The notes under the pieces were generated by a model. The model was not told the origin of the DNA and made no database searches. It saw only the letters and a program-made list of their open reading frames with translations. The position numbers and the translations under genes were made by a program. A stretch of DNA of 64,000 nucleotides from Anaerosolibacter sp. (GTDB taxonomy: Bacteria > Bacillota > Clostridia > Peptostreptococcales > Thermotaleaceae): assembly GCF_029240175.1 (NCBI RefSeq), contig NZ_JARBTM010000007.1, forward strand, positions 62,001-126,000, written 5' to 3'. Positions 10,443 to 53,843 of this stretch are shown piece by piece. How positions within the stretch are numbered: the first letter of the stretch is position 1; every line of letters starts with the position of its first letter.

Positions 10443-10570
10443 GTATGTCCTCCTAAATAAAGTGGTGAATGACCCCTAGGGTTTAATCATACACCATTTC
10501 AAATTCATTGTAAATTCAGAATGGATTTGCTTGCGGAACTGGCATGCCTGTTCCCTACGTTTGTTTTGAA
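10443..10570. other. Intergenic region with a REP-like palindrome
   Basis: This is the promoter side of the CPBP protease gene (GGAGG lies just before its ATG). An imperfect palindrome GGAACTGGCATGCCTGTTCC followed by CTAC (10535-10554) resembles the GGG...CCC-CTAC palindromes at 8455 and 26352. Confidence 0.4.
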
Positions 10571-10723: not shown

Positions 10724-10787
10724 CTCTACACCCCTCCCCATACCATCCTTATGTGTTCACCAGTTTGTACTATGCAGGCTTCTTTTT

Positions 10788-10831
10788 ATAAATAAATCCT
10801 GGGTGTCATTTGACACCCAGGATTTATTTAT
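10788..10831. terminator. Bidirectional terminator after the SLH gene
   Basis: A perfect 21-bp inverted repeat (ATAAATAAATCCTGGGTGTCA) with a 2-nt spacer. It overlaps the stop of the SLH gene and has T-rich flanks on both strands. Confidence 0.8.
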
Positions 10832-12192: not shown

Positions 12193-12406
12193 TCTGTACC
12201 TCCCTTAAAAACGTCTTCTATATATAGACGAAGAAATTTCATTTTTGTTTCATGAAATCATGATTTTTTCCATATTTTTTCCTTTATTTCTTACCCTAGG
12301 GTATCTTGAAATAAACAATTGAAATATTTCCTCATATAGATTAGACTAAATCCATAGAATCATTACCTTATTATGGTAATGTTGACGAAGGAATGAAGGT
12401 GAAAAG
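12193..12406. other. Divergent promoter region in the skin element
   Basis: The region separates the SLH gene (minus) from the CapA-like gene (plus). It holds a perfect 12-bp palindrome TACCCTAGGGTA at 12292-12303, a candidate operator between the two starts, and an imperfect CGTCT...AGACG hairpin near 12212-12230. I did not find a -10/-35 pair that I would defend. Confidence 0.4.
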
Positions 12407-13705: not shown

Positions 13706-13738
13706 GCCCCTCGTCTGAGGGGCTTATTCTATATCATT
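13691..13738. terminator. Shared bidirectional terminator containing both stop codons
   Basis: A perfect 22-bp inverted repeat with the loop GTCT. The plus-strand CapA-like gene ends (TAA) inside the left arm and the minus-strand metallophosphoesterase ends (TGA) inside the right arm. The core CCCCTC/GAGGGG is GC-rich with AT-rich outer arms, as expected for two-way termination. Confidence 0.85.
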
Positions 13739-14834: not shown

Positions 14835-14977
14835 AATGATTCCTCCCATAACTTATTGAACAAAAGTACTATCAATATTGAATATTGTAACAAACTTCGT
14901 TAAGGAAGACAATATCGCGCATATTGTAAGTATCTTTTTAATAAATATAGGTTAGCACTAGGCTTGAGGAGGGACAT

Positions 14978-16516
14978 ATGGAAAAGGTATGTATGTATTT
15001 AAGAAAATCCCGGGCAGATGTAGAGGCCGAGGCCCGTGGTGAAGGTGAAACCTTGAGCAAACATAAACAATATCTTTCCAAGTTTGCTCAGGAATATAAT
15101 CTAAATATCATAGATGTTAAGGAAGAGGTTGTTTCTGGTGAAAGCCTCATGCACAGGCCTGAGATGATTGCACTGCTTCATGAAGTAGAAGCTGGAGCGT
15201 ACGAAGCTGTATTATGTATGGACATGGACCGTTTGGGCAGAGGGAATATGCAGGAGCAGGGCCTAATTTTAGATACTTTTAAAAAATCAGCCACAAAGAT
15301 TATTACGCCTAGAAAAACATATGATCTTCACGATGAATTTGATGAGGAGTATAGCGAGTTTGAGGCTTTTATGGCACGTAAAGAACTTAAAATAATCAAT
15401 AGACGTCTACAGAGAGGCAGATTGCGTTCCATAGAAGAAGGCAATTACCTATCCCCTATCCCCCCATATGGGTATGATATTCATAATACGAATAATCACA
15501 GGAGTCTTATACCTAATGAGGAACAAACAAAGGTAGTCAAAATGATTTATGATTGGTACACCAGCTTAGGAATTGGCGGCAATAAAATCGCTGCACGTTT
15601 AAATGAGCTCAGGTATCCCACCAGTACAGGTAAGCCTTGGTCATCATCAGCGGTATTAAATATCTTAAAAAATCCCATTTATATTGGAAAAATCACCTGG
15701 AAAAAGAGAGAGATTAAAAAATCATTGACTGCTGAAAAAAAGAAGAATTCACGACTACGTGTAAGGGATGAGTGGTTGATTACTGAGGGTCAACATCCAC
15801 CGATCATCTCAGAAGAATTGTTCGAGAAGGCACAGCACGTTTTGAAAAATCGAAGCAATGTTCCTTTCACAGACAATCATCAGATAGTCAATCCCTTAGC
15901 AGGGTTAATCCGCTGCGGCATATGTGGAGCCTCTATGGTTCTCCGGACTTACAAAACAAAAGATTCACAACTAATGTGCTATCAGCATTGCAGCAACAAA
16001 AGCAGCAAGCTGCTATATGTAGAACATCGATTAACTGAGTCTTTAAAGCTTTGGCTATCAGAATACGCTGTCCAGTGGGATCAGATTCTTAACGTTCAAA
16101 ATCAACTTCAAACCAAAATTGATTTACATAATAATATTATGCAAACCATTGAAAGCAATCTTCGGGATTTACAAATCCAAAAGAACAATGTATATGACTT
16201 ATTTGAGAAAAACATCTATGACTTGGATACATTTAACAATCGGATAGGATATCTTAGCACGAAGATTCTTGAAATGGAAAAACTACTCACCGATACTCGA
16301 GTTAAATCCGCACAACTTAAGGATATTATACCTACTGCTTCATCTATGGAATTCAGTTCTCTTCTTGATATATATCATCTAGCGCAAACTCCTGAGAAAA
16401 AAAACAGATTCTTAAAATCTGTTATCAGCTATGGGGTCTATTTCAAAGAAAAACATCATCGCGACGATCAGTTCACATTGATTCTTTATCCAAAACTGCC
16501 CAATCATCAAGAATAG
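14978..16516 (+). CDS. spoIVCA: Large serine recombinase, SpoIVCA-like excisionase of the skin element
   Basis: Site-specific recombinase expected to excise the sigK element. The N-terminal resolvase domain has YLRKSR with the nucleophile at Ser11, followed by MDMDRLGRG near residue 80. A Recombinase domain (PPYGYDI...[13 protein letters not shown], about 160-260) and a zinc-ribbon (CGICGASM...CYQHC, about 310-340) follow, then a coiled coil (380-460). At 512 aa it is about SpoIVCA length. Its start has GAGGAGGG upstream. It lies beside the 5' sigK part, convergent with it, and ends 22 bp inside the attachment core. By analogy expression should be confined to the mother cell, but I could not identify its promoter. 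Confidence 0.92.
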
Positions 16517-16970
16517 GTTGATAATAAAAAGAAGGCAATTCATTGCCTTCTTTATCAACTCCAATTGGGTCTTGCAGCGATACTTCACTTTTTGTTTTCT
16601 TGCTAGAACGAATGGTCATCAAGATTTCATTTTCAATGCACCGGGCTGCGTAGGTTGCCAATCGCGTGCCTTTATGACGATCAAAGGTGGTGATAGCTTT
16701 GATCAACCCGATGGTTCCAATGGAAATAAGATCATCTACTTCTCTTCCAGTATTATGGTATTTTTTAACGATATGGGCCACAAGCCTTAGATTTCTTTCA
16801 ACAAGAATATTTTTCGCTTCTTCATCTCCTTGTTCATAAAGGGCCAATTGATGATTTTCTTCTTCCGGGGTCAAAGGCTTGGGAAATGAATTATTTGTAG
16901 AAACATAGGATACAAGGGCAATCAATGGTTTTGCCAATACCGCAGACAACGTGATAAAAGTAGCCCACAT
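16473..16970 (-). CDS. sigK: RNA polymerase sigma-K factor, 5' portion (SpoIVCB-like) with pro-sequence
   Basis: Encodes the N-terminal part of pro-SigK: a hydrophobic pro-sequence ([23 protein letters not shown]) followed by [12 protein letters not shown] and sigma region 2 ([54 protein letters not shown]). SigK-like sequence ends at [14 protein letters not shown]; the last ~21 codons are read from the skin element and antisense to the recombinase gene. The start is the ATG at 16970, because AGGAGG precedes it by 11 nt and overlaps the longer GTG start. The pro-sequence resembles that of Bacillus, whereas Clostridioides difficile SigK lacks one. It follows the PBP gene, the usual clostridial position. 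Confidence 0.94.
16530..16551 (-). repeat. Attachment site of the skin element, sigK 5' side (near-perfect palindrome)
   Basis: Contains the same 13-bp core AGAAGGCAATGAA (minus strand, 16539-16551). On this side the core is part of a near-palindrome with 10-bp arms AGAAGGCAAT / ATTGCCTTCT around a central TC. The copy at 9534 lacks the second arm, so the extra arm is element-derived. Confidence 0.85.
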
Positions 16971-17072
16971 GTAACGATCCACCTCCTAAATTTAGGTCAT
17001 TTAAAATTATATGTAAAAAAAGATAGAAATGTGCATGTCTTTGTAAAATAGCCCCTCCAAAGATCAATCTTT

Positions 17073-39264: not shown

Positions 39265-40260
39265 CTATCTTTTAAACGCATAACATAACTCCCCAATTCT
39301 TTTTTGTCCATCCTTTGATAGAATATATTCAAGAAAAGGCACTTGTTCTCGCAGCTGACGGTCCATTTCATTGATTGGTTTTTCATTTAATGATGCAGTG
39401 CAAAGAAAGAAAAAACTTACCCTTGCAATGGCGAGCTGCAGTGCAGCTATTTCCTGTTCTTCTAATAGACCATAACCTTGCATAAAGGGTTCCGCAAATA
39501 TCTTCATTTGGGATCTGTTCAAGAAGTTCCACAAAGCATAGGCAATATCGAAAAGACGTTCTTTTCTCTGTATATAATCAAAATCGAAAACACAGCATAC
39601 TGTTCCTTCCTTTGTAAATAACTGATTTCGTTCATGCCAATCTCCATGTATCACTGTATGAGGAAGTTCTTTCTCTTTATCATTCCATCCTTTTTGAATT
39701 TCATCGTATAGGCGATATATCAATAAGATTTTTTCTTTATTGAAATTGTGCTTTATTAACTCAAGTCTTGTAATTCCTTTATTCAATACCTCTGTAGATG
39801 GATAGACAGAGGATCTTGGAACGGGGATTTTATCATAGTCACTCAAGACATCATGCATCTTTTTCAAAACTTCACCACTTGAAAACATCTGTTTGGGATT
39901 TCGATTAAAGCTATGACCTACTATGAAGGGCGTTACTTGAATCCTATAATTCTTTAGTTTGATATAATGCTGGTTATTGATGGTTTGAAGGGGTAACAAG
40001 GCGGGTATTCCATTTTCCTTGAGAGTTTTTATTGCCTCGACAATGTTGATGAGTTGATGCTCGTCTATATACGAAAACTTAATTATATACTTTCCCTTTT
40101 CCGTTTCTGTTAAGATATTTATATTGACTGTGTTCTTAATATGACCATGAATATACTTTAATTTACCGATATCAAACTGCATACATATATATTCTACATC
40201 CTCAATGCCCAGTAGGCGATCATTTAAATGCTTCTTTTCTTTCCAGCTTATCCTGTCCAC
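39265..40260 (-). CDS. CotS family spore-coat kinase-like protein
   Basis: Aminoglycoside phosphotransferase/choline-kinase fold protein of 331 aa. It has a nucleotide-binding N-lobe (KGKYIIKFSYID), the Brenner motif VIHGDWHERNQLF and the metal motif VFDFDYI. CotS/CotI/YutH spore-coat proteins share this fold, and some relatives phosphorylate or assemble coat proteins. The neighbours (glycosyltransferases behind SigK-type promoters) support a spore role. GTG start with AAGGAGGAG upstream. Last gene of the minus-strand operon. Confidence 0.82.
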   Translation of the reverse strand: MDRISWKEKKHLNDRLLGIEDVEYICMQFDIGKLKYIHGHIKNTVNINILTETEKGKYIIKFSYIDEHQLINIVEAIKTLKENGIPALLPLQTINNQHYIKLKNYRIQVTPFIVGHSFNRNPKQMFSSGEVLKKMHDVLSDYDKIPVPRSSVYPSTEVLNKGITRLELIKHNFNKEKILLIYRLYDEIQKGWNDKEKELPHTVIHGDWHERNQLFTKEGTVCCVFDFDYIQRKERLFDIAYALWNFLNRSQMKIFAEPFMQGYGLLEEQEIAALQLAIARVSFFFLCTASLNEKPINEMDRQLREQVPFLEYILSKDGQKRIGELCYAFKR

Positions 40261-40292
40261 CTAGTCTCCTCCTTATTATCATAAGAAATGCA

Positions 40293-40883
40293 TCAATTCT
40301 GTAGATATTCTTTCATTTCCAATCTCCACTTTTCATATAGTCCCTTATCTATATGCTTTATCTCGTTCATTAGGCTTTGTACAAGGTTCTGTCTCTTTAA
40401 TTCCATAAATAATCTATGGGGGTTGGGTTCTTTTTTAATATATACGTTAACAAGATCAATTACCTTAAATTCCTTATTTTTATTGACAATAACATGTCTA
40501 GGTGCTACATCGAGTCTTTGAAATCCAACCCTTTCCATTTCCCTTGTAATAAGTACGATTTGTTTAGCAATATTTGTTGTAATTCTACCTTTCCTCAAAA
40601 GGTACTTTTGTAAGGACGGACCATCAATATAGTCCATGACGATATAGTTTTCACCTGTCTCATATACTTTCGGCACAATAATCGAATCTTGAGCAGCAGC
40701 ATAAGCTTTTTTCTCAAGATCACAATTATCTTTTTCACCATAGATTTTGACGCATTTGTCTTCAGCAATTTTGAATACTGCTCCCTGTGCACCTTTGTCA
40801 ATAAAGGTATACTGCGAATTGTTTTCTACTTGCAATTCCAAGGTTGAAATTTGTTTCACTTGGATTGAACTAAAATCATACAT
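40293..40883 (-). CDS. Atypical protein-kinase-like protein
   Basis: About 196 aa with a kinase-like fold: a glycine-rich DKGAQGAVFKI, Lys in CVKIYG, hinge YIVMDYIDGPS, catalytic loop RLDVAPRHVIVN (HRD replaced by RLD) and a VIDLVN in place of DFG. Asp residues for catalysis remain, so activity is possible but unusual. I set the start at 40883, preceded by AGGGGGA. It lies between the tandem glycosyltransferase and the CotS-like gene; shared control is likely. Confidence 0.75.
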   Translation of the reverse strand: MYDFSSIQVKQISTLELQVENNSQYTFIDKGAQGAVFKIAEDKCVKIYGEKDNCDLEKKAYAAAQDSIIVPKVYETGENYIVMDYIDGPSLQKYLLRKGRITTNIAKQIVLITREMERVGFQRLDVAPRHVIVNKNKEFKVIDLVNVYIKKEPNPHRLFMELKRQNLVQSLMNEIKHIDKGLYEKWRLEMKEYLQN

Positions 40884-40998
40884 TGTATGTCCCCCTAACG
40901 CTCGGATTTTATGAATATCATGCTGATTGTTCATGGTTCATCTTTCGTGAGGAGAAATCGACGGAGAGCCCATCCTCTGGTCTTTTTCTCCCCGCTTC

Positions 40999-42924
40999 TT
41001 ACGTTTTGTAATAATGTTGTTCAGGATAATCCCCTCTTTTTACAAAGCCTGCTTCAAAGTCTGGGTATAATTCTTTGACTTCTTCGATAACCTTTGTCAA
41101 TGTCTTTATATAGGGCAAATAGATAGAATTTACAACTTGATCCTCTACTCGATTAAACCAGGATAAGGAGAATTCCCTCGGCGAATAAATTCCAAACCCA
41201 GAAAAATGATAAAGTACGATCCTTTGATCATTGACATATAACTTGCCATCTCTTTCAGATAATTGATAGCCTTCGATGTTCCAAGGTGCCACATGGGCTC
41301 CTTTGGACCGAACAATGTGTACATTTGAGAACAACTTGGGCCATGTCTCTAAGTGTCGCTGGTCACCATACAGTTTTTTTACTTGGTCGAACCTATTGAA
41401 GCACCATGCGATACATCTAGATTTCCACCATTCCACTGCAGCTAACGCTGTTTCATTATTTTTACATCCTACGAATCCAGAATTTATCTTCCCAGATTTG
41501 TTATAATAATGCTGGAATCTTTTCGAGTTATAGTGATCGGTTAAATAAAGTGATGCCTGAGGTGCTTCATTAAATATCTTTATTGGATCAGCAAAAAAGA
41601 ACAGATCTGAATCAATCATTGCATAGTATTGGGCGGTTGAATAATGTGTCATGATGTAGTGCAGTAAAGCTGGCTTTAAGGTCCAACTATATTCCGTTTT
41701 CGTCCGTCGAGATTTAATACTTAATAAATCTCTATCTTCTACTTCATCTAACATAATACAGGTAACTTTCTTTAAGTTCATACTGTTAATCATTTTATAC
41801 GCAACCTCATCGGTACAAAGCATGAATAAATGGAAACTCTTGCTGTGCCTTGCTAAAGACTTATACATTGTAATTGCTTTACAAATATATCTATCAGAAA
41901 CGATCGTTGCGTAAAAGCAGTCCCCCTCCTGTTGTAATACTGTCTTCCCGTTAAACTTAAATATCCGGTCATTCTTTTTATATTTTTCCTCCACTAGGTA
42001 GGCATTAAATCTTGAATCAACTTTTTCTACATCTGAAATTGCTTCTCTAAGAGCTTGTGTATATGGCTCATATATAAGAGCAATCGGCTCATTATGACCG
42101 TCAAGGGCTAAGGAATATTCATTTTTGTTTCTTAATCTAAAACCACCAAAATGATACATGATTAGTCTGTCGTTGTTTACACATATCTCATTGTTGCGCA
42201 GTGATACCGTATATTTTTTTTCGTTCCATGGGGCAATGTTTACACCATGGGTTTTGATGTAGCAAATGCCTTCAAATAAATGGGGTGCTTCTTCTAAATA
42301 TTTTTGATCACTAAATCTATTTGGTTCTATCCTATCATAGCACCATTCAATACACCTGATTTTCCACCATTTCAAACAGGCAATCCCATTTTCATTCCTT
42401 ATAAAACTTACAAAGCCCGAGTTTACCTTGCCTACCATTCTTTCTGAATGCTCTTTGACATCGTCTGGATAGTCATGGTCTGATAACAATACTGAGCATT
42501 TTCCTTGGTTTTCAAATATTGGTCTCGGATCATTAAAGAAGTATAAATCTACATCCAGATGGGTAACACGATGAATACTGGGAAACCTATCTAAAATAAA
42601 ATCTAAAAGAACGGGTTTTAAGGTCCAACAATATTCATTTAATCTTCTCTGCTTTTTTATTAAACGTAATTCATTCGTTTCTATGTCATAAAGCTGAAGA
42701 AGCGTTACCTGGGTCAGCTTTATTTTTTTTAAAATATCATAGGTTTCCGTATCCATGCACAAAATAAATATTTCAGATGTTGTATGACCATTTACATACT
42801 TTTCAATAGATCTACATAAGGCGATTACCTGATATAGCCTATATTTTGATACAATAATACAATATGCATCTTTAATATTCCTATTTTTTAATTGAGCGGT
42901 TAGGGAATTAAATATATCTTTCAA
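40999..42924 (-). CDS. Tandem-domain glycosyltransferase (two copies of one GT-A domain)
   Basis: 641 aa made of two homologous domains (about 15-315 and 335-630). Each has a Rossmann-like start (AYCIIVSKYRLYQ / CFYATIVSDRYIC), 'EYCWTLKP' or 'EYSWTLKP', a DxD-type metal motif (HLDVDLYFFNDP / MIDSDLFFFADP), NSGFV, IAPWN/VAPWN and a late YHFGGFR/YHFSGFG. The same domain forms the single-domain proteins at 43980 and 44883. No signal peptide or membrane segment, so it acts in the cytoplasm, probably of the mother cell. Donor and acceptor are unknown. TTG start at 42924 with a weak ribosome-binding site. Confidence 0.83.
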   Translation of the reverse strand: MKDIFNSLTAQLKNRNIKDAYCIIVSKYRLYQVIALCRSIEKYVNGHTTSEIFILCMDTETYDILKKIKLTQVTLLQLYDIETNELRLIKKQRRLNEYCWTLKPVLLDFILDRFPSIHRVTHLDVDLYFFNDPRPIFENQGKCSVLLSDHDYPDDVKEHSERMVGKVNSGFVSFIRNENGIACLKWWKIRCIEWCYDRIEPNRFSDQKYLEEAPHLFEGICYIKTHGVNIAPWNEKKYTVSLRNNEICVNNDRLIMYHFGGFRLRNKNEYSLALDGHNEPIALIYEPYTQALREAISDVEKVDSRFNAYLVEEKYKKNDRIFKFNGKTVLQQEGDCFYATIVSDRYICKAITMYKSLARHSKSFHLFMLCTDEVAYKMINSMNLKKVTCIMLDEVEDRDLLSIKSRRTKTEYSWTLKPALLHYIMTHYSTAQYYAMIDSDLFFFADPIKIFNEAPQASLYLTDHYNSKRFQHYYNKSGKINSGFVGCKNNETALAAVEWWKSRCIAWCFNRFDQVKKLYGDQRHLETWPKLFSNVHIVRSKGAHVAPWNIEGYQLSERDGKLYVNDQRIVLYHFSGFGIYSPREFSLSWFNRVEDQVVNSIYLPYIKTLTKVIEEVKELYPDFEAGFVKRGDYPEQHYYKT

Positions 42925-42961
42925 TCATCATACCCCACAATCTGTTTTAAAATATATTCCA

Positions 42962-43726
42962 CTACCAAGTTTTCCAGCCTTCTTCTCTCCGATCCCAGAT
43001 CTCATTTGCCAAGGTTATATCTTTATACGTATCCATGGCCAGCCAAAATCCTTTATGGTTATATACTGCCAACTGCTGCTCTTTTGCTAAATTTTTCATA
43101 GGTTCTTGCTCCAAGATACAATTTGTATCATCATCTAAATAGTCAAATATCTCTTTGTTAAATACGAAAAATCCTCCATTTATAAGTTCTGCAGATTGAG
43201 GTTTCTCTTGAAATGCTTTTGCTATTCCATTTTCAACGATTAAAGTGCCATATTGGCTTTTCGGGGTGATCCCTGTTACCGTAGCTATCTTTCCTCGCTC
43301 TTTGTGATATTGTAAGAGATTTAAAATATTGATATTGGATAGCCCATCTCCATAGGTTAACATAAATGTATTTTCCCCAATATAGTTTCGTGCTCTTTTA
43401 ATTCTACTTCCAGTCATCGTTTCTAACCCTGTGTCTACAAATGTTATTTTCCAAGGCTCTCTCTTTCCTAACAATTGTATCGTTTCTTCAGCACTATCGA
43501 GCACAAAGTTATGATTCTTCCAATGATAATCCAAAAAATACTCTTTAATTTTGTCTCCCTTGTACCCTAACAAAAAAACAAAATCATTGCATCCATAAAA
43601 CTGATATATTTTCATCAAATGCCACAATATCGGTCTTCCGCCTATTAAGGCCATAGGCTTTGGCATATCTTCAGTGATTTCTCTCATTCTCGTCCCTTTT
43701 CCTCCGCAGAGAATAACTGTTTTCAT
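42962..43726 (-). CDS. rfbF: Glucose-1-phosphate cytidylyltransferase-like nucleotidyltransferase
   Basis: NTP-transferase with MKTVILCGGKGTRMREITEDMPKPM at the N-terminus, and GYKGDKIKEYF, FVDTGLETMTGSRI and LTYGDGLSN further on. The length of 254 aa and these blocks match RfbF (CTP + glucose-1-phosphate to CDP-glucose). No CDP-glucose dehydratase (rfbG) is nearby, so CDP-glucose itself or another pathway step must use the product. GGGGG ribosome-binding site. A SigK-type promoter lies about 80 bp upstream. Confidence 0.87.
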   Translation of the reverse strand: MKTVILCGGKGTRMREITEDMPKPMALIGGRPILWHLMKIYQFYGCNDFVFLLGYKGDKIKEYFLDYHWKNHNFVLDSAEETIQLLGKREPWKITFVDTGLETMTGSRIKRARNYIGENTFMLTYGDGLSNINILNLLQYHKERGKIATVTGITPKSQYGTLIVENGIAKAFQEKPQSAELINGGFFVFNKEIFDYLDDDTNCILEQEPMKNLAKEQQLAVYNHKGFWLAMDTYKDITLANEIWDRREEGWKTW

Positions 43727-43805: not shown

Positions 43806-43833
43806 TAGGGTATGTAGACAAGGCGTAATTGGT
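43806..43833 (-). promoter_or_regulatory. Candidate SigK promoter of the rfbF-GT-kinase operon
   Basis: Minus strand: AC, exactly 17 bp, CATACCCTA, an exact match to the SigK consensus AC-N17-CATANNNTA. The -10 ends about 80 bp before the rfbF ATG. No SigA-type pair was seen nearby. Confidence 0.65.
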
Positions 43834-43867
43834 TCCATTATGATATCTTCCCTTTGATGCAAATAAA

Positions 43868-43903
43868 AAGTGATAAGTTTTTTGATCCTTGTACTTATCA
43901 CTT
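43868..43903 (-). terminator. Terminator after the glycosyltransferase at 43980
   Basis: AAGTGATAAG/CTTATCACTT hairpin followed by TTTATTTG on the minus strand. It separates two transcription units. Confidence 0.75.
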
Positions 43904-43979
43904 AATAGATGTTGCTTTTCCTATTGGCTATCGTTATCATATTTCATACATTATATTTACTAGCATATAACGTAGTGAG

Positions 43980-44840
43980 TTAAGCATTCAGCTTATCAAT
44001 ATCGTTTATTGCTTTTTCAAGCGCCTGGGTGTAGGGTTCATAAATGATAGGGATAGGAATATTATCCCCAAAGGAAAGCAGGAACTCTTTTTTATTTATT
44101 ATTTTATAGCAGGAGAAATGATACATGATCAGTCTATTTTTATCGATAAGTATTTCATTATTTAATAAAGATATTTTATACTTTTTATCATTCCATGGTG
44201 CTATGTTTACACCTGGGGTAGTGATATAGTCTACCCCTTCGAACAAGCTAGGTATCTCATCAAGATATCTTTGATCACTGAATTTATTTCCCTCAACCCT
44301 CTCGTAGCACCATTCCAAACATTTATCACGCCACCATCTTAAGCATTGAATGCCATTTTTATTTCTTTTGAAGCTCACAATTCCAGAGTTTGTCTTGCCA
44401 GCACTCTGCTCTGACTCCTTATAAATATCTGCATAATCATGATCTGATATTAGAATAGAACTTTGAGACTGATTTTCAAATAATCGTGTGGGATCACTAT
44501 AAAAATATAAATCAGCATCAAGGTGAGTAACCCGATCAAGATCACCGTATCTCAGCAGTACATATTCTAAAAAAAACGGCTTTAATGTCCAGCAATATTC
44601 ATTAAGTTTTCTCTCTTTTTTTACCATACGTAACGCATCCGTCTCTATCACCTTTAATTTCACTAGTTTTACATTTACAAGTTCGAGTTTTAATAAAGTA
44701 TTATACGTTTCAGAATCCATACATAATGTAAATATTCTATAGGTATCCGACTGTTTTATATGTGCTGCCAGAGATTTGCAAAGGACTACTGCTTGATATA
44801 ATCGGAATTTCGATACAACCATACAATATCCATTTTTCAA
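43980..44840 (-). CDS. Single-domain glycosyltransferase, paralogue of the tandem enzyme
   Basis: 286 aa, one GT-A domain: YCMVVSKFRLYQAVVLCKSL, EYCWTLKPFFLEYVL, HLDADLYFYSDP (DxD), NSGIVSF, VNIAPWNDKKY and YHFSCYK. Closely related to the next gene and to domain 1 of the 641-aa protein. TTG start at 44840 with GAGGTG upstream. Cytoplasmic; specificity unknown. Confidence 0.82.
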   Translation of the reverse strand: MKNGYCMVVSKFRLYQAVVLCKSLAAHIKQSDTYRIFTLCMDSETYNTLLKLELVNVKLVKLKVIETDALRMVKKERKLNEYCWTLKPFFLEYVLLRYGDLDRVTHLDADLYFYSDPTRLFENQSQSSILISDHDYADIYKESEQSAGKTNSGIVSFKRNKNGIQCLRWWRDKCLEWCYERVEGNKFSDQRYLDEIPSLFEGVDYITTPGVNIAPWNDKKYKISLLNNEILIDKNRLIMYHFSCYKIINKKEFLLSFGDNIPIPIIYEPYTQALEKAINDIDKLNA

Positions 44841-44882
44841 ATTTTACACCTCGCAATAAATATATATATAGAAAAGTTATTA

Positions 44883-45812
44883 TCAATCAGCTAACCTAAA
44901 AACTTTTCCACCTGTTCCTAATGCACTTTTTTTATAAAATCCGTTAAAATTAGCGTCAGCTTTTTCAATACACGTAATAGCGTTAAGGATTGCGTTAACA
45001 TAAGGCTCATATATCACTGGAATTGGATTCTTGTGCCAGTCTAATTCCAATGTATATTCATTTTTATTCAATAATCTAAAACCACAAAAATGATACATAA
45101 TCAGCTTATCTTTATTTAAAAGAACTCTACTATCTTTTAAGGTGAACTTGTATTTTTCTTCATTCCATGGGGCTATATTGACACCTGGGGTGTTTATATA
45201 GCTAACGCCTTTGAATAATTGGGGTGCTTTGTTCAAATATCGCTGATCACCGAATTTATCACCTTCAACTCTGTCAAAGCACCATTCGTAACATCTCTCT
45301 TTCCACCATTTTAGACATTTGAAACCATGTTTATCTCTTTTGAAGCTTACAATCCCTGAATTTGTCTTTCCAGCAGCATCTTCTATATATTTATGCTTGT
45401 CAGAATAATCATGGTCTGATAATAAAATAGAAATATCCGGTTGATTTATGAATATTGATGTGGGATCCCCATAAAAGTACAAGTCAGCATCTAGATGTGT
45501 CACACGATCAATCTCAAGGTATTTTTTTAAAACATACTCTAGGAATACTGGTTTTAAAGTCCAGCAATATTCATTTAATTTTCTTCCTTTTTTTATTGAC
45601 CGTAGTTCATCGGTTTCTATTCGCTGAAGTTGAATTAATAATACATTCTCTAAATTTAATTTTGATAAAATATCATAGGTCTCATGGTCCATGCACAGAA
45701 TAAAAACCTTGAAGCTCTTTAAATCACTTATGTTGCTAGCTAATGAGTGATAAAGTGCTACGACCTGATATAGCCTGAATTTTGAAAGAATGATACAATA
45801 TCCATTTATCAT
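44883..45812 (-). CDS. Single-domain glycosyltransferase, second paralogue
   Basis: About 309 aa with the same order of motifs: YCIILSKFRLYQVVALYHSL, EYCWTLKPVFLEYVL, HLDADLYFYGDP, NSGIVSF, VNIAPWNEEKY and YHFCGFRLLNKNEY. A short extra C-terminal tail (GFYKKSALGTGGKVFRLAD) is unique. I set the start at 45812 after AAAGGTGTGG. A SigK-type promoter lies about 110 bp upstream, and the next gene starts 42 bp after its stop. Confidence 0.82.
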   Translation of the reverse strand: MINGYCIILSKFRLYQVVALYHSLASNISDLKSFKVFILCMDHETYDILSKLNLENVLLIQLQRIETDELRSIKKGRKLNEYCWTLKPVFLEYVLKKYLEIDRVTHLDADLYFYGDPTSIFINQPDISILLSDHDYSDKHKYIEDAAGKTNSGIVSFKRDKHGFKCLKWWKERCYEWCFDRVEGDKFGDQRYLNKAPQLFKGVSYINTPGVNIAPWNEEKYKFTLKDSRVLLNKDKLIMYHFCGFRLLNKNEYTLELDWHKNPIPVIYEPYVNAILNAITCIEKADANFNGFYKKSALGTGGKVFRLAD

Positions 45813-45924
45813 GGTTCCACACCTTTCCGTGAGTATTAGATATCCTTGGGAAATACACAAATTACATACTACTTTACTACCTGAAGATATCTCATGAAAA
45901 CTTCAGTTTCAATTTCTTCTATTT

Positions 45925-45952
45925 CAAGTTATGTAGACAAGTGGGTATTTGT
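45925..45952 (-). promoter_or_regulatory. Candidate SigK promoter of the paired glycosyltransferases
   Basis: Minus strand: AC, 17 bp, CATAACTTG, one mismatch to CATANNNTA. The 11 bp CTTGTCTACAT before and across the -10 are identical to the site at 43806, so the two control regions look duplicated with the genes. Confidence 0.55.
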
Positions 45953-45979
45953 TACAAAGAGATATGCCTAGGGCAAGGA

Positions 45980-46981
45980 TTATCGAGCCTCAATAACAGA
46001 ATGGTAAATGTTTTTGATCTTTGCAGCTGCTTTTGTCCATAAATAATTTTCTATAATGAAATTTTTAAATTCTTCACTGTGTGGTGTTTCAAAAGCCTTC
46101 ATGGTCTGATGATAGATTGATTCCATGTCATTTGGATTACAGTAGTTTACATAGTCTTGAAATACTTCCTTTGTAGATCCGACCTCGGTTGACACCACAT
46201 TGCATCCAGCGATACCCGCTTCGAGACTTGCAAGTCCCGGATATTCAATCCAGCTGGGTAATACATGAACCCTTGCGCCATTATAAATTGTGTCAAGTTG
46301 ACCTGTTTTGATATTATCTAGAATGACCACTCTTTCTTTGCCTTCATGAATGCACTGTTTGTAATAATCTCTATCGTTTATAGATCCAACCAAAACGATA
46401 GGTATATTCTCCTTTGATAAGGCGCTAATCAAGCTTAATTGATTTTTCTGACGACTTATTCTTCCTACACACAATACAAATTCATCAATTCCCAGCTTCG
46501 ATTTAATATAACTGTCCTTTCCTTTGCTTAAGGAAATATCTGTACCATAGGGGATTATTGAAAACTTTAGATCATTACCATAGTTCTGTTTAATTAATTC
46601 TTTTTCCCCACGACAGTGGGATATAATCAAATCTGTGTTATTAAAAACAATTTTCCTCTTCGTTTCCGCTCTCATCCACAATTGTAGTTTATCTAGCTGA
46701 TTTGTCTGATTGAAATATTGCTTCAAATCCCAATATATAGAATGTAATATTATCTTCTTCTTATATTTTTTTGCATTCATGACAAATTCATAACTTTCCT
46801 CAATTCTTACAGTATTAAAAATATGTACCAAGTCATAGCTTATGGGATTAATATTGGCATCCGTGCATATATCTACCTTGACCCCTTGTTTCATCAAGTT
46901 TTCTCTTATATTCAGAAATATTATGCTATCACCTGCAATATTTCTTAAATAATCTTTTCGTATTTGAAATAAAACTTTCAT
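45980..46981 (-). CDS. Family 4 glycosyltransferase
   Basis: GT-B enzyme of 333 aa: an N-terminal domain with HIFNTVRIEES and DLIISHCRGEKELI, then a C-terminal nucleotide-sugar domain (FVLCVGRISRQKNQLSLI; WIEYPGLASLEAGIAGCNVV with the E-x7-E-type motif; NPNDMESI). Retaining enzyme by family; substrate unknown. GAGGAG before the ATG. Its upstream region is divergent from the sugar-nucleotide genes. Confidence 0.87.
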   Translation of the reverse strand: MKVLFQIRKDYLRNIAGDSIIFLNIRENLMKQGVKVDICTDANINPISYDLVHIFNTVRIEESYEFVMNAKKYKKKIILHSIYWDLKQYFNQTNQLDKLQLWMRAETKRKIVFNNTDLIISHCRGEKELIKQNYGNDLKFSIIPYGTDISLSKGKDSYIKSKLGIDEFVLCVGRISRQKNQLSLISALSKENIPIVLVGSINDRDYYKQCIHEGKERVVILDNIKTGQLDTIYNGARVHVLPSWIEYPGLASLEAGIAGCNVVSTEVGSTKEVFQDYVNYCNPNDMESIYHQTMKAFETPHSEEFKNFIIENYLWTKAAAKIKNIYHSVIEAR

Positions 46982-47181
46982 ATTCTCAACTCCTCATAAT
47001 TTTAATAATGTTGTTTAGTGTAAAACTCTATTACTATATATATTCAATTCCCTTCATTTAAAGTTATCTTTTAAGGTTTATAGATCAGCTAATTATGAAC
47101 AGACACTTTATTTGCAAATTATTAATATATATGGAAGTAGAGAATGGACATCATCAAACTATTAAAAAGGGGTGTTTTACA

Positions 47182-48255
47182 ATGTCTATTGAATCACAAG
47201 ATTTAGATTATATTCGTCGAAAATTCGATAAAAATTTCTCATTTGATGACAAAACAATTTTGATAACCGGAGCAGCAGGATTTATTGGCTATTATTTTTC
47301 CAAGTATTTTGTTTCCCTTGGTGATATTGGCATTCATCCTAAGAGAGTGATCCTAACCGATAATTTTTTGTTGGGTCATCCTAAATGGATTGACAAAATG
47401 GCGTCTTTCGATAACGTCTATGTTGAGAACTTTGATATATCTACAGATAACCTTGAAGATCTTAAACATGCAGCTGAAGCTGAATATATCATTCATTTAG
47501 CCTCTATTGCTTCACCAATCTATTATCGTAAATATCCCATTGAAACAATGGATGCTAATATTGTAGGCTTGAAGCGCATTTTAGAATTCTATTTAGATAA
47601 GCCTGTTAAAGGTATTCTTTTCTTTTCTAGTAGTGAAATTTATGGCACTCCCGATGGAATGAATATTCCTACTGATGAGGAGTACCGAGGACTCGTCTCA
47701 TGCACAGGCCCAAGGGCTTGCTATGATGAATCAAAACGTGCTGGTGAAGCGATGTGTAGATCCTATGCAGAAGTATATGATCTGCCGATTATTGTTGTAC
47801 GTCCATTTAATGATTTTGGTCCGGGAATGAGGCTCGACGATTTCCGTGTTCCAGCTGATTTTGCTTATTGCGTGCTTAATGGAAAGGATATAAAAATGCT
47901 CTCTGATGGGCGTCCCACTAGAACATTCTGTTATATTGCTGATGCGATATATGGATACCTACAAGCACTCGTCTACGGAAAATATGACTATTTTAACATA
48001 GGTCATGAAAGTCCCGAGCTATCCATATCAGAATTTGCTATGCTTTATCAACGTATAGCCAATACACTATATGGCTATGAAGGAGATATCATCAGAGTCG
48101 TTTCAGAGGACAAACATTATCTTACGGATAATCCCCAGAGACGATGTCCATCTATTGAAAAAGCCCGGCGGTTGCTAAACTTTTACCCTGAGATAACTGT
48201 AGAAGCGGGGATCGAAAGATATCTGAGATGGCTTAAAGAGGAGGGATTCTTTTGA
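47182..48255 (+). CDS. NAD-dependent sugar-nucleotide epimerase/decarboxylase (SDR)
   Basis: Extended SDR of about 357 aa. NAD motif TGAAGFIGYYFSKYF, the active-site set FSSSEIYGTP and CYDESKRAGEAM (YxxxK), RPFNDFGPGM, and a late FNIGHESPELSISEFA. It resembles UDP-glucuronate decarboxylase and 4,6-dehydratase-like enzymes. Pairing with the overlapping UDP-glucose dehydrogenase-like gene makes UDP-glucuronate to UDP-xylose (or a 4-keto product) the best guess. I set the start at 47182, preceded by AAGGGGTG; the 29-residue extension in the ORF track has no ribosome-binding site. Confidence 0.83.
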   Translation: MSIESQDLDYIRRKFDKNFSFDDKTILITGAAGFIGYYFSKYFVSLGDIGIHPKRVILTDNFLLGHPKWIDKMASFDNVYVENFDISTDNLEDLKHAAEAEYIIHLASIASPIYYRKYPIETMDANIVGLKRILEFYLDKPVKGILFFSSSEIYGTPDGMNIPTDEEYRGLVSCTGPRACYDESKRAGEAMCRSYAEVYDLPIIVVRPFNDFGPGMRLDDFRVPADFAYCVLNGKDIKMLSDGRPTRTFCYIADAIYGYLQALVYGKYDYFNIGHESPELSISEFAMLYQRIANTLYGYEGDIIRVVSEDKHYLTDNPQRRCPSIEKARRLLNFYPEITVEAGIERYLRWLKEEGFF

Positions 48256-49508
48256 TAGGTATTATAGGACTCGGTTTTGTTGGACTTACAACTGCACTTG
48301 GGCTTGCTGAAATGACAGGTAATCAAGTCTGGGGTTTTGAGAAAGACAAAGAAAAAAGATCCATTATCGCTTCTAAAAATATACCTTTTTTTGAACCTGG
48401 CCTGATAGAACCTCTAGGCAAACATCTTGGAAAGACTTTTCATTTAGCTTCTTCAATAGAGGAGGTTGTACAAAAATCAAGTATTATATTTTACTGTGTC
48501 GGCACTCCAACTGGAGAAGAAGGTCACGCTGACCTGTCTATTCTTCATGGCGCTATCATAGAAACTCTCTCTCATATTGTATCTGATGATTATAAAGTAC
48601 TTGTCATCAAATCAACTGTTCCTCCATCTACAACAGCTTCAGATATTGTTACATTAATCCGTTCTCTTGGGTTTGAACCAGGCTTAAACATTGGACTTGT
48701 GAATAACCCTGAATTTCTACGCGAAGGCTTTTCGTGGGAAGATTTCACAGCACCTGATCGTATTGTCATTGGTGAATTCGATGACAAAAGTGGTTCTATG
48801 GTTGCTGAACTATATTTGAGTTTCAATGCACCAGTTTTCCGAGTTTCCCTAAATACAGGGGAGTTTATAAAGTATTTATCAAATACGCTGCTATCCACAC
48901 TCATAAGCTATGCAAACGAGATGTCGATCATTGCTGATAGAATTGGGGAGATAGATATTAAAGATGCTTTTAGCATATTGCATATGGACAAAAGGTGGTA
49001 TGGCACCCCTGGAAATATGAGCACATATGTATATCCAGGGTGTGGATTTGGAGGATATTGTTTGCCTAAAGATACTGCTGCCTTGCGAAGCCGATCTCGA
49101 TTTGCAGGTTATGAGCCCAAAGTTCTCAACGCTGTAATCGATACAAATAGTATTATTAAGCAACATATCATTGATAAAATCCGGGATACCATAAAAGATA
49201 GAACCTCAACCATAGGAATATTAGGCCTATCTTTTAAGCCAGGTAGCGATGATGTTCGTGATACACCTGCAGCCTACATCATTAAAGGCCTGTTAGCAGA
49301 AGGATTTACAAATATCATCGCCCACGATCCAATGGCAATTGATGAATTCAAGAAGAATTATTCATTTGATATTCATTATGAAACTTCTTTAGATGTTGTT
49401 ATTAACTGCTGTGAAGCTCTTATCATCACGACAGCATGGAATGAGTATCGTGAAAGTGCAGAGAAGATTATGTCAAAACTTCATTTTGATGGGCGATATT
49501 GTCTTTAA
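48252..49508 (+). CDS. UDP-glucose/GDP-mannose dehydrogenase family enzyme
   Basis: Four-electron nucleotide-sugar dehydrogenase of 418 aa. The N-terminus is IGIIGLGFVGLTTALGLA, followed by GTPTGEEGHADL, KSTVPPST, NPEFLREGFSWEDF and catalytic Cys in GCGFGGYCLPKDTAAL. ILGLSFKPGSDDVRDTPA marks the C-terminal domain. The product is probably UDP-glucuronate. TTG start at 48252 overlaps the SDR stop by 4 bp, with GAGGAGGG upstream. Confidence 0.88.
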   Translation: MIGIIGLGFVGLTTALGLAEMTGNQVWGFEKDKEKRSIIASKNIPFFEPGLIEPLGKHLGKTFHLASSIEEVVQKSSIIFYCVGTPTGEEGHADLSILHGAIIETLSHIVSDDYKVLVIKSTVPPSTTASDIVTLIRSLGFEPGLNIGLVNNPEFLREGFSWEDFTAPDRIVIGEFDDKSGSMVAELYLSFNAPVFRVSLNTGEFIKYLSNTLLSTLISYANEMSIIADRIGEIDIKDAFSILHMDKRWYGTPGNMSTYVYPGCGFGGYCLPKDTAALRSRSRFAGYEPKVLNAVIDTNSIIKQHIIDKIRDTIKDRTSTIGILGLSFKPGSDDVRDTPAAYIIKGLLAEGFTNIIAHDPMAIDEFKKNYSFDIHYETSLDVVINCCEALIITTAWNEYRESAEKIMSKLHFDGRYCL

Positions 49509-49521
49509 AATCCATTTAGAT

Positions 49522-49560
49522 AAGCTCAGAATATTCTTTGTTGTTAAATATTCTGAGCTT
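49522..49560 (+). terminator. Terminator of the SDR-dehydrogenase operon
   Basis: A 14-bp stem AAGCTCAGAATATT/AATATTCTGAGCTT followed by CTTTACGTTTTAG, directly after the dehydrogenase stop. Confidence 0.85.
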
Positions 49561-49699
49561 CTTTACGTTTTAGTTTTCCTTAATTTAATCTATAAACTTC
49601 ATGTAATTATCAAAGAAATATGCCTATTTCTACTCTCTTGTACATATAAATTGTAATAGTACAATGTCATATTTCTAATATTGTAAAGAGGTGATTGTG

Positions 49700-51163
49700 A
49701 TGCAACGAAGCTCAAAACATCAATATATATACTTTCATAATCTTAATCACAAAAGTACTTTCTATATCTTGAATAATGATTTATTTATGACTATGAAGAG
49801 TGATTATAAAAATAGTGCTTCAATAAAAATAGCTGGCAATATTCTCGATTTTGCTATAGATGCAGACAACAAAGGAACTTTTCATCTGGTATCCCTAACG
49901 ACAGAAGGAGATTTGATTTATTGGAAAAATAAAGGTCAAAAATGGTATTCGCGCATATTAACAAAATATAATACTCAACTTTATCAATTTAAGAATTTGA
50001 ATATTTTTGTCCTGAAAAATAATATCCATATTTTAATGGCTATTAACAGTTCTATTAACCCTGAAGTTTGGACTTTAAAACACCATTATTGGAATAGTTC
50101 TGTTTGGTTCAATAAGAAGGTCTGTGATATTACTATCAAGAAATACGATGACCCATTCTATGCTGACATAGATATGAACAATAATATTCATATTGTATAC
50201 AAGTCTTTACGAAACAATAAATATGACATATTCTATTCTCAATACACGGGTATACATAATATATGGAGCACACCAACAAAGCTTAACAATACACTCCAAG
50301 ACAACTGTCATCTACATTTGTTTTGTGATCGCCATAGCCAGGTGCATATCGTATGGTCAAGTCTACTGAATAACCATTTTAAAGTGTTTTATATCAATAA
50401 CAGACCAAATGGTCATAAAAAATACTGGACAGAACCTCGTTCCATATCTCCTGAAAACATAAATTGCTCTCATCCATTCATTTTTCAAGTTGAAGATACG
50501 CTTGCTCTTGTATGGAATGAAGGGAGCAAGTATATGAAACTATCAAAAAATACAAATGAGAATGAATGGAGCTTACCAACTCCCGTATACTTTAATAAAG
50601 AATTAAAATCATTTCCAATCACAGTTATTGGTAACAACTATAAATCCTTCAGTTTTGTCAAAATCCCTTTTACCTATGGACATTTAAAAGATGAATTCTT
50701 CCTTTTAGCTGTAGATTCTTACTTAGAGCAGGATCAAATAACTAGTAAAGATAAGGATAGTGCATTTGAGCAGCTTGGCAATACGATTCCATTATCAAAT
50801 GCTGTTCAGCTAGAGGATGTTCCTAGTTACTCTACTGAAGTTGAAATCCAAGAAGTTGAATCCCCTATTCCCCCGATATCTGTTGATAATGATGTGTTAA
50901 CGATACCAACACAGGATCATCATAAAGCGATTGAAGAAAAGATTGATTGGAAAGAAGAACAATTAAACACATTTCGTGACACCCTTAATAGTATCACCGT
51001 GAACCAAGACGCTATTAATCAATTATTATCTTCTATTCAAGAGCGTCAGGCTGATACAAATCATCAAATAAATCAACTATTCTACTTATATGAACAAATT
51101 TATCAGTCCATATTAAAAGAACAAGAAGCTGGTCTTAAAAAATTCTTTAATTTATTTAAATAA
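49700..51163 (+). CDS. Propeller-plus-coiled-coil protein, copy A
   Basis: About 487 aa with no signal peptide. The N-terminal ~320 residues carry repeated strands of the type 'D..NNIHIVYKSLRNNKYDIFY', 'D.HSQVHIVWSSLLNNHFKVFY' and 'LALVWNEGSKYMKL', as in BNR/sialidase-like beta-propellers. An acidic Pro/Ser-rich linker (about 340-420) leads to a helical coiled coil (420-475) and the end 'GLKKFFNLFK'. The gene at 52320 has the same architecture and a similar end. I do not recognise a named family. Its position suggests a spore-surface structural or carbohydrate-binding role (inference). Start at 49700 after GAGGTG. Confidence 0.7.
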   Translation: MQRSSKHQYIYFHNLNHKSTFYILNNDLFMTMKSDYKNSASIKIAGNILDFAIDADNKGTFHLVSLTTEGDLIYWKNKGQKWYSRILTKYNTQLYQFKNLNIFVLKNNIHILMAINSSINPEVWTLKHHYWNSSVWFNKKVCDITIKKYDDPFYADIDMNNNIHIVYKSLRNNKYDIFYSQYTGIHNIWSTPTKLNNTLQDNCHLHLFCDRHSQVHIVWSSLLNNHFKVFYINNRPNGHKKYWTEPRSISPENINCSHPFIFQVEDTLALVWNEGSKYMKLSKNTNENEWSLPTPVYFNKELKSFPITVIGNNYKSFSFVKIPFTYGHLKDEFFLLAVDSYLEQDQITSKDKDSAFEQLGNTIPLSNAVQLEDVPSYSTEVEIQEVESPIPPISVDNDVLTIPTQDHHKAIEEKIDWKEEQLNTFRDTLNSITVNQDAINQLLSSIQERQADTNHQINQLFYLYEQIYQSILKEQEAGLKKFFNLFK

Positions 51164-51224
51164 TATAAAGAATTTGGGTATTTACTACTACCCTACTAGA
51201 TTTTTATCACCACCGTTAGAATAA

Positions 51225-51253
51225 AAGAACCCGTCAGCAATTGACGGGTTCTT
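51225..51253. terminator. Bidirectional terminator between convergent genes
   Basis: A perfect 12-bp stem AAGAACCCGTCA/TGACGGGTTCTT with a 5-nt loop, T-rich on both sides. Confidence 0.88.
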
Positions 51254-51288
51254 TCGGCTTTTAACTTTCATTTTGTTTGCAAAGATCA

Positions 51289-52134
51289 CTAAAATCCTAT
51301 TCCAGGGCCTGTTATAAAGTCATCTAATTGTGGTGGGAAGAATTCGGGTGGTAATTCTTCATTGAAATCTTCACATGGTGTTCTGTCAGGACGTCTTTCA
51401 CATGGTGCTGGCGGAGGACAGAATCCAAATGCTGGTATAACCAACTGTACTTCAAGTTCGCATTTGATTATGTTGTAAATGCCTACTGTAAATACTACGC
51501 AGCATACATTCTCATAAGCATCATAAGGATCTGGACAAGTAGTGTCGCAATTCTCTTTTACCACCTGTGCATCTAATACTCTTGCTATAATCTCTAATTT
51601 GATAATTTCATCATCTGCATCTTTAGGATATCTAATTGTTCCAGATTGATCAATTTTAGTTTCTCTGATAATGGCAACTGACTCAGGACAATACAAAGGT
51701 CCAACTGTCTCAGTTCTTCTTAATATAAGCTCATTGTCCTCACTAATTGTACCATCATCAAATAATATATCATATAGGATTCGAAGTGCGTAAGTGTAAG
51801 TGATTAGCTTTCTATCAGGATCTCCTGATACTGGTCTCTTGCTAATGACTCTAAAAGAATCTGGAACAAGTCCCTCTACTCTAGGATTTATAATTTCCTC
51901 TGCACTGCAATCGATTCTAAATCTTAAATCAGAATCAAATACGATGCCTTGGCTTCTATCTTCTTCTTTACAGTCTCCTACTAAACATAACCTTAGTAAA
52001 CATGAATCATAAACTTTTGGTACTTGCACACATACAAGTTCGCAAGCATTGCCAAACTGTTCCCTTAATTCTTCTGGAATAACACCAGGTGTATATAAGC
52101 TTATACCACAGCCTGATGGTGTTTGTTTATACAT
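51289..52134 (-). CDS. Cys/Pro-rich protein, probable spore coat or exosporium protein
   Basis: 281 aa, no signal peptide, at least 15 Cys spread along the chain (e.g. CELVCVQVP, CPDPYDAYENVCCVVF). The C-terminus is Pro-rich (FCPPPAPCERRPDRTPCED...FFPPQLDDFI). Cys-rich, cytoplasmically made proteins in this context are usually cross-linked into spore outer layers. I do not recognise the family. A consensus SigK promoter lies about 75 bp upstream, strengthening the spore assignment. AAGGGGG precedes the ATG. Confidence 0.68.
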   Translation of the reverse strand: MYKQTPSGCGISLYTPGVIPEELREQFGNACELVCVQVPKVYDSCLLRLCLVGDCKEEDRSQGIVFDSDLRFRIDCSAEEIINPRVEGLVPDSFRVISKRPVSGDPDRKLITYTYALRILYDILFDDGTISEDNELILRRTETVGPLYCPESVAIIRETKIDQSGTIRYPKDADDEIIKLEIIARVLDAQVVKENCDTTCPDPYDAYENVCCVVFTVGIYNIIKCELEVQLVIPAFGFCPPPAPCERRPDRTPCEDFNEELPPEFFPPQLDDFITGPGIGF

Positions 52135-52207
52135 ACATTTTCCCCCTTCTTTTTAATAAAATTTGTTGCGTCATATTCTTTGCAAATAGAAATGTCTTTT
52201 CTAATTG

Positions 52208-52235
52208 TATAGTATGAAGATTGTGTTGTTTTGGT
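52208..52235 (-). promoter_or_regulatory. Candidate SigK promoter of the Cys-rich protein gene
   Basis: Minus strand: AC, exactly 17 bp, CATACTATA, an exact match to AC-N17-CATANNNTA. About 75 bp before the start codon; no SigA-type elements seen. Confidence 0.68.
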
Positions 52236-52319
52236 GATAAAAAATTTTAAGCCCATTTATCCAGCTTTAACATATTGTCTTCCCTGTAATAATATATTTT
52301 ACTAAGGTAGGTGTTGTGA

Positions 52320-53843
52320 ATGATTCAGAAAGATAATTTAGATATTATTTTGAAATTGCCTGAAAAAAGCATAAGATTTTTTTCGCCTTCAAAGCAAGGT
52401 ATTTACTCTCAACTTATTGGGCAAGCGGACTCAACCAAAATATTTGAAGACAGCATTCTAGAATATGATTTGGACACAGACCCGTATGGAAATATTAATC
52501 TTATCATCTTGGATCAAAAGGGAAACCTCTATCTCTATCGATATGATGGTAAAAAGTGGTCTAATTACAAAATATATCAGTTCAATTTACTCACAGATGA
52601 AGTAAGGCAATTACAAATCAAGTGCACTTCTGACCATACCTTTATAACCTTGTGTGAGCGAACACAAATAACTTCGAACCAATGGACGATTGTCTCTTTT
52701 TCCCCTCATGCACAAGGTTGGAAAAAATCTACCCTATCTTCATTATTTCTAAACTACCCCGTTATGGCATATCGTCTAGCTAAGGATGCAAAAAATAATT
52801 TGTATGTCATTTATTTAAATAATAATAATATTGTCTATAACTTAAATCTTATTGTCTTTAACCATAAAACTCGCAATTGGTCTGACCCGATATTTATAAG
52901 TAATTGTATATACATAAAAACATTCCATCTTGACGCTCTTGTAGATAACAATGATGGTATTCATTTGGCTTGGACAGATAAATACAAAAAACAATTTTGT
53001 GTTAAATATGTTTACATCCCTTTATCAAAAGCTGAAAATTTACAACCTACTACTACAATGATGCTGGACGAACCAATTTTTTTGAATCAACTAACACTTC
53101 TCAAGCATTCTATTCACTGTTATGGGATTACCTTAAATAATATATACCACTTTAACAAGCCACTTCATGATTCCAATTCATCTCAAGTATGGAGGTCTTA
53201 TGATGAACCAGCCTATGAACTTGATAATCTTTTTATCTATAAAACTGCTGGAAGTGTAGGCCATTCATTGGCAAATTATTATCTTTCAGATAAACGCTCA
53301 AATTATCATCCTATTCAGATTGAAGAGTTTGATAATTTAACAAATGTAGCATATAGTCATCATAATTCTAGCATTACGTCTTCCGAATCAACCCATAAAC
53401 CTGCAAACATCATTAGAGACTCTGCGCCTATAGACATTCCTCACGATCAGCAAATTTTGAAACTTAAGGCTGATCTTTTTAAGAAAAATCAACAAATTGA
53501 TGCTACTCAAAAACTAATAAATTCTTTACAAAGTGAGATTATCTATATAAAACAAGAAATAAAAAATCTGAATGATCAAAACAGCAGATATGTACAAATA
53601 ATAAATGAATCAAAAAATAAATATAAGGAGATCTATGATTCAACGATAAAATTTGGTCAGCTTTTTGAAGATACAGTTTCAAAAACCCAGTTGTCTGAAT
53701 TGAGCAAAAATATCGAAATACTTTCTCATCATTTTGCTAAAATGAAAGAAGAAGTAACTCTTTGTAAAACCCAAAATGAAGAGTTAAGACAATATGCTGA
53801 AAGCATACGTAACGAGGGCTTTCTGAAAAAGTTTTTTGGATAA
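52320..53843 (+). CDS. Propeller-plus-coiled-coil protein, copy B
   Basis: 507 aa, same plan as the protein at 49700: N-terminal beta-repeat region ('DTDPYGNINLIILDQKGNLYLY', 'KDAKNNLYVIYLNNNNIVYNL', 'DNNDGIHLAWTDKYKKQFCVKY'), a Ser/His-rich linker around 340-375, a long coiled coil (385-495) and the terminal 'GFLKKFFG'. Sequence similarity to copy A is low except in the repeat units and the tail. No signal peptide. The ATG at 52320 follows AGGTAGGTG. It is divergent from the Cys-rich gene. Confidence 0.7.
   Translation: MIQKDNLDIILKLPEKSIRFFSPSKQGIYSQLIGQADSTKIFEDSILEYDLDTDPYGNINLIILDQKGNLYLYRYDGKKWSNYKIYQFNLLTDEVRQLQIKCTSDHTFITLCERTQITSNQWTIVSFSPHAQGWKKSTLSSLFLNYPVMAYRLAKDAKNNLYVIYLNNNNIVYNLNLIVFNHKTRNWSDPIFISNCIYIKTFHLDALVDNNDGIHLAWTDKYKKQFCVKYVYIPLSKAENLQPTTTMMLDEPIFLNQLTLLKHSIHCYGITLNNIYHFNKPLHDSNSSQVWRSYDEPAYELDNLFIYKTAGSVGHSLANYYLSDKRSNYHPIQIEEFDNLTNVAYSHHNSSITSSESTHKPANIIRDSAPIDIPHDQQILKLKADLFKKNQQIDATQKLINSLQSEIIYIKQEIKNLNDQNSRYVQIINESKNKYKEIYDSTIKFGQLFEDTVSKTQLSELSKNIEILSHHFAKMKEEVTLCKTQNEELRQYAESIRNEGFLKKFFG

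Follow-up and report, generated by a model that had tools for sequence, protein, structure and literature searches.

Predicted SigK-type promoters at a glycosylation locus and a split sigK gene in Anaerosolibacter sp.

The DNA analysed here (the window) is a stretch of 64,000 nucleotides from the 3.87-Mb draft genome of Anaerosolibacter sp. It carries, on the minus strand, genes for a nucleotidyltransferase, several glycosyltransferases and a cysteine-rich protein, preceded by three predicted SigK-type promoters, P1, P2 and P3 (Table 1). The glucose-1-phosphate cytidylyltransferase encoded first behind P1 matches PDB entry 1tzf with an E value of 5.9e-71, and the fused double glycosyltransferase that follows it corresponds to two separate genes in most relatives. 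Two kinase-like genes come next, at gaps of about 65 and 32 nt, and may continue the P1 transcript. The first gene of the glycosyltransferase pair behind P2 probably starts at the ATG at 45815 and not at the TTG at 45860, as judged by aligning the N-termini of the pair. The Cys-rich protein behind P3 has no match in Pfam or NCBIfam; its predicted structure is of low confidence (mean pLDDT 55), and structure comparison gave no meaningful match. Besides relative G001, which belongs to the same genus as the window genome, members of the family that carry the gene include Thermotalea, Anaerophilus, Geosporobacter and Marinisporobacter.

A divergent 507-aa gene, the Cys-rich gene, a 490-aa gene, a GT4 gene, the cytidylyltransferase gene, (a dehydratase-like gene) and glycosyltransferase genes follow one another in an order that is retained whole or in large part in 12 relatives. 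To this locus the window genome adds the glycosyltransferase pair GTb/GTa and a pair of genes for an epimerase and a UDP-sugar dehydrogenase (47095-49508). The latter pair lies between GT4 and the 490-aa gene, divergent from GT4, and is absent from that place in the relatives examined. The dehydratase-like gene, located 3' of the cytidylyltransferase gene in relatives, is missing from the window at 42924-42962. In relative G005 the best family for this gene is TIGR02622 (CDP-glucose 4,6-dehydratase), with a score below the cut-off; in the window genome no CDP-glucose 4,6-dehydratase scores over the cut-off, the best match reaching 101 bits against 278. Relatives also share an element like ACATTATAATAGGACAA 5' of the 490-aa gene at 49691 (window positions 49541-49690).

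Table 1. Features of the window discussed in the text, in order of position
Feature	Position	Strand	Remarks
sigK, 3' piece	9228-9546	-	TIGR02846 positions 136-226; starts at repeat 9546-9534; recognition-helix Arg (GISRSYVSRIEKR)
sigK-intervening (skin-like) element	9547-16551		7,005 bp, repeat to repeat
Cargo of sigK element: CPBP-family protease	9627-10442
Cargo of sigK element: SLH-domain protein	10828-12192
Cargo of sigK element: PGA_cap protein	12407-13705
Cargo of sigK element: phosphoesterase	13734-14849
Serine recombinase of sigK element	14978-16516	+	Pfam Resolvase, Recombinase, Zn_ribbon_recom
sigK, 5' piece	16539-16982	-	TIGR02846 positions 4-142; ends in repeat AGAAGGCAATGAA at 16551-16539
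Two kinase-like genes	39265-40934	-	40293-40934 ABC1/RIO-like; 39265-40260 APH-like, weak CotS similarity
Fused double glycosyltransferase (Nucleotid_trans/GT8 type)	40999-42924	-	Second behind P1; Pfam PF03407
Glucose-1-phosphate cytidylyltransferase (RfbF/YfnH type)	42962-43726	-	First behind P1; TIGR02623, 302.3 bits, cut-off 300.25
P1, predicted SigK-type promoter	43806-43833	-	AC-N17-CATACCCTA; full string ACCAATTACGCCTTGTCTACATACCCTA (43833-43806); 5' of cytidylyltransferase gene, start codon 43726
Glycosyltransferase pair behind P2	43980-45860	-	Pfam PF03407/PF01501 near cut-off; GTb 44883-45815, GTa 43980-44840, 58% identical to each other
P2, predicted SigK-type promoter	45925-45952	-	AC-N17-CATAACTTG, imperfect -10 end; full string ACAAATACCCACTTGTCTACATAACTTG (45952-45925); 5' of glycosyltransferase pair
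Cys-rich protein, 281 aa	51289-52134	-	Behind P3; 13 family orthologues 64-83% identical
P3, predicted SigK-type promoter	52208-52235	-	AC-N17-CATACTATA; full string ACCAAAACAACACAATCTTCATACTATA (52235-52208); 5' of Cys-rich gene, start codon 52134
SigE-like element of divergent 507-aa gene (52320-53843)	52272-52296	+	ATA-N16-AATATA; conserved in relatives as ATA-N16-[CA]ATATA

The three promoter strings, and the genes thought to be served by them, had been put forward in an earlier note on this DNA. All three were recovered by exact match, all on the minus strand, and the cytidylyltransferase gene, the glycosyltransferase pair and the Cys-rich gene do lie behind them on that strand. The statement that the sites follow the SigK consensus holds for P1 and P3, which match the strict -10 sequence CATANNNTA, but not entirely for P2, which ends in TG instead; its -10, CATAACTTG, is without the last A, and the P1 sites of relatives G001, G006, G011 and G015 end likewise. 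The spacing from AC to CATA, described in the note as identical, is 17 in all three sites and falls within the approximately 16-17 expected for a SigK promoter; by itself this equality is no evidence, because 17 was the spacing used in the motif search. The window contains 47 copies of AC-N17-CATA, and 29-44 copies for every other spacing from 12 to 22. The genome scan that the note had suggested as a background check revealed no enrichment of AC-N17-CATANNNTA: its strict matches number 6 in the window, and the whole genome has 175 of them, fewer than the 258 of a reversed control, so that the bare motif carries no evidential weight. An additional match, AC-N17-CATAACTTA at 14828-14855, 5' of the recombinase gene, was treated as chance; it overlaps the apparent ribosome-binding site of a divergent gene. 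An extended pattern, ACMAA-N14-CATANNNTR, whose -35 context was taken from orthologue conservation in a refinement made after the sites had been seen, has 15 matches genome-wide (20 for the reversed control). Among these, only P1-P3 are intergenic with a substantial gene that begins no more than 250 nt away in the same orientation.

The non-circular evidence for the predicted promoters P1 and P3 is their conservation in relatives, not motif counts. Ahead of the Cys-rich gene, AC-N17-CATANNNT(A/G) is present in 13/13 genomes (shuffle mean 0.28, maximum 3), and ahead of the cytidylyltransferase gene in 8 of 12 (shuffle mean 0.06, maximum 1), counts that come from related genomes and are not independent samples. 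The P3 motif stands 92 to 105 nt ahead of the ATG. Its -35 and -10 are fixed across the 13 genomes (1.74 and 1.76 bits per position, respectively), with AC invariant, while the spacer is free (0.48 bits). The looser AC-N17-CATA is found at P1 in 9/12 genomes; the site is degenerate in G013 and G014, the spacing after CATA is altered in G005, and the orthologous upstream region of G009 has no P1-type motif. Among all spacings, 17 alone stands out in the orthologous upstream regions. Upstream of the GT4, 490-aa and 507-aa genes, AC-N17-CATANNNT(A/G) was found in none of the genomes compared. When 198 genomes of the order were scanned with a 41-nt pattern derived from P3, 9 had a match, each a single one at the P3 position; the reversed control matched nowhere.

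P2 is without an orthologous position in relatives, and the case for it therefore depends on its similarity to P1-type promoters and on displaced copies of the glycosyltransferase pair. The P2 string most resembles the promoter of the cytidylyltransferase gene in G001 (ACAAAAACTCACTTGTCTACATAATTTG) and in G005, and CTTGTCTACATA is common to P2 and P1. Four displaced pairs in relatives (G001 C9, G007 C95 and two in G011) were compared. In three of them AC-N17-CATANNNT(A/G) lies 127-133 nt ahead of the pair. At about the same place the fourth shows, as judged by eye, a CGTA variant; this fourth pair also has an AC-N17-CATA that fails at the -10 end. The motif is absent upstream of the in-operon copies of the pair in relatives. 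P2 is probably a copy of a P1-type promoter that would have arisen as GTb/GTa inserted between the GT4 and cytidylyltransferase genes, such a duplication being apparently the simplest history for it.

In C. difficile and B. subtilis, one -10 sequence serves both SigE and SigK; the two factors are told apart at the -35 (ATA for SigE, AC for SigK), the choice being tied to Gln (SigE) or Arg (SigK) in the recognition helix (PMC3789822, PMC517825). At the -35 specificity position, SigK of the window genome has Arg (Table 1) and SigE has Gln (GISQSYISRLEKR). As a control we used spoIVA, which we take to be a SigE-class gene. Its upstream region shows ATA-N16-CATA in 14/15 family genomes and AC-N17-CATA in 0/15, whereas ATA-N16-CATA occurs in none of the 13 P3 regions and in one of the 12 P1 regions. 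The dpaA gene could not serve as a positive control for the SigK regulon because it was found in none of the 16 family genomes searched. The earlier note's attribution of the sites to SigK is supported, as against SigE, on three counts: a conserved -35 that reads AC with N17 and not ATA, the opposite pattern at the spoIVA control, and the Arg/Gln difference between the two factors. Thus, the best reading of P1-P3, and a highly probable one from the comparative evidence, is that they are SigK-dependent late mother-cell promoters. That SigE, alone or along with SigK, reads them as mother-cell promoters is unlikely: the CATA -10 is indeed common to both factors (PMC3789822), and the SigE-like element beside P3 indicates that the region is not purely late, but the ATA-N16-CATA counts given above and the invariant AC at P3 argue against SigE. 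The SigE-like element itself, in the form ATA-N16-[CA]ATATA, is present in 11/11 orthologous regions 5' of the 507-aa gene, the canonical -10 C being missing in most. Because this element lies opposite P3, the intergenic region 52135-52319 may hold early and late mother-cell promoters, possibly arranged back to back.

The bases just 3' of the -10 are also conserved, reading CAA[GT]TA[AG]A at P3 (52190-52220) and AA-T-GAG-AGA at P1 (43790-43806); P2 has AAATAGAAGAA at this place. P1-P3 may have in common a downstream element or an initial transcribed sequence. Conservation that extends beyond what the published SigK consensus needs could also mean that the blocks are sites of another regulator, or a different promoter class that only looks SigK-like. 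This we consider very improbable, for there are two conserved blocks with the exact content and spacing of SigK sites, and the -10 lies about 74-110 nt from the start codon. Least probable of all are chance matches in AT-rich sequence, a view that could appeal to the 6 strict bare-motif matches in the window and the lack of genome enrichment but is refuted for P3 and P1 by their position-specific conservation.

The earlier note had also pointed to a sigK gene in the same window. The gene is present there but is not intact, being split into two pieces by a 7,005-bp element. A 13-bp direct repeat, AGAAGGCAATGAA, bounds the element, and joining the two pieces at this repeat restores an unbroken 245-aa SigK in frame. 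Since the element splits sigK, P1-P3 should stay silent until it is excised; that is, excision should be needed before they work.

Among the family genomes with sigK matches, the gene is in one piece only in G005 and G009; Thermotalea metallivorans belongs to the members with an unbroken sigK. It is interrupted at codon about 114 in G004, G007, G008, G010, G011 and G014, and at codon about 143 in the window genome and G006. Both sites are occupied in G013 and G015, which breaks sigK there into three, the middle part being about 30 codons long; in G001 the N and C pieces are on different contigs, fitting the two-insertion pattern. Recombinases at the codon-143 site are 47-56% identical to that of the window, and those at the codon-114 site about 20%. 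Besides its first-site split, G011 (C1:5761000-5764000) has an extra sigK 3' piece, covering codons about 141-242, about 22 kb farther along. Relative G012 lacks sigK and the Cys-rich gene; a joint loss together with sporulation is not claimed because spoIVA is retained and the genome is 91% complete. One literature search turned up no description of a doubly interrupted sigK, which is not proof of absence. We lean, by a modest margin of confidence, toward the view that the late spore-surface programme is gated by programmed excision of DNA from sigK. The window genome would need one such event; at least two relatives (G013 and G015, probably also G001) would need two separate ones, carried out by serine recombinases of distant relationship, the number two following from the three-piece gene in G013 and G015. 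If true, the promoters in the two-insertion relatives would be turned on only after both rearrangements.

On the SigK reading of P1-P3, the sigK element would be cut out in the mother cell, the three promoters being silent before; RNA polymerase with the SigK then made intact would read them late in sporulation. P1 would start a minus-strand transcript covering the cytidylyltransferase gene, then the glycosyltransferase gene and possibly the kinase genes; minus-strand transcripts from P2 and P3 would carry the pair of related glycosyltransferases and the cysteine-rich protein, respectively. We infer that the products of these transcripts would together build the outer spore surface and decorate it, and the genes behind P1-P3 fit such late spore-surface work.

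Like the promoters predicted here, the SigK promoters described for B. subtilis and C. difficile (PMC517825, PMC3789822) are characterized by an AC -35, a CATA-type -10, a SigK Arg and service to late spore-surface genes; unlike the promoters as described there, the present ones have conserved bases 3' of the -10, and the -10 end of P2 is imperfect. The B. subtilis yfnHGF genes are under positive control of SigK and GerE, GerE being reported absent from clostridia (both from PMC517825), and mutants of the yfnHGFED operon, which concerns spore crust glycans, have an altered spore crust (PMC7439481). The P1 operon is like yfnHGFED (PMC7439481, PMC517825) in that a glucose-1-phosphate cytidylyltransferase comes first and sugar-transfer genes follow, with late mother-cell control by SigK, here predicted from the motif. 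Unlike that operon, it is without the CDP-glucose 4,6-dehydratase, for which reason we do not file it as a full yfnHGFED-type member, and an extra glycosyltransferase pair stands nearby with its own predicted promoter. The sigK element, for its part, shares with the skin elements of B. subtilis and C. difficile sigK (PMC5025042) a serine recombinase, a short direct repeat and in-frame rejoining. It departs from skin in its 7.0-kb size and its cargo of CPBP protease, SLH protein, PGA_cap protein and phosphoesterase; moreover, the family has two insertion sites, both filled in some members.

The promoters are, as predicted, a further instance of known SigK/yfnHGFED-type control, that is, of ordinary SigK control of spore glycosylation; more surprising than these is the split sigK. 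The prediction of the promoters places in the late mother-cell programme a gene cluster that is conserved but unannotated, in a clostridial family that has been little studied, and makes the Cys-rich protein a new spore-surface candidate. The contrast within the family between AC-N17-CATA for SigK and ATA-N16-CATATA for SigE is usable for regulon prediction. Finally, the split sigK would link this programme to DNA excision, an arrangement that a 2016 paper, speaking of skin, called an exception in clostridia (PMC5025042) and that is the rule in this family.
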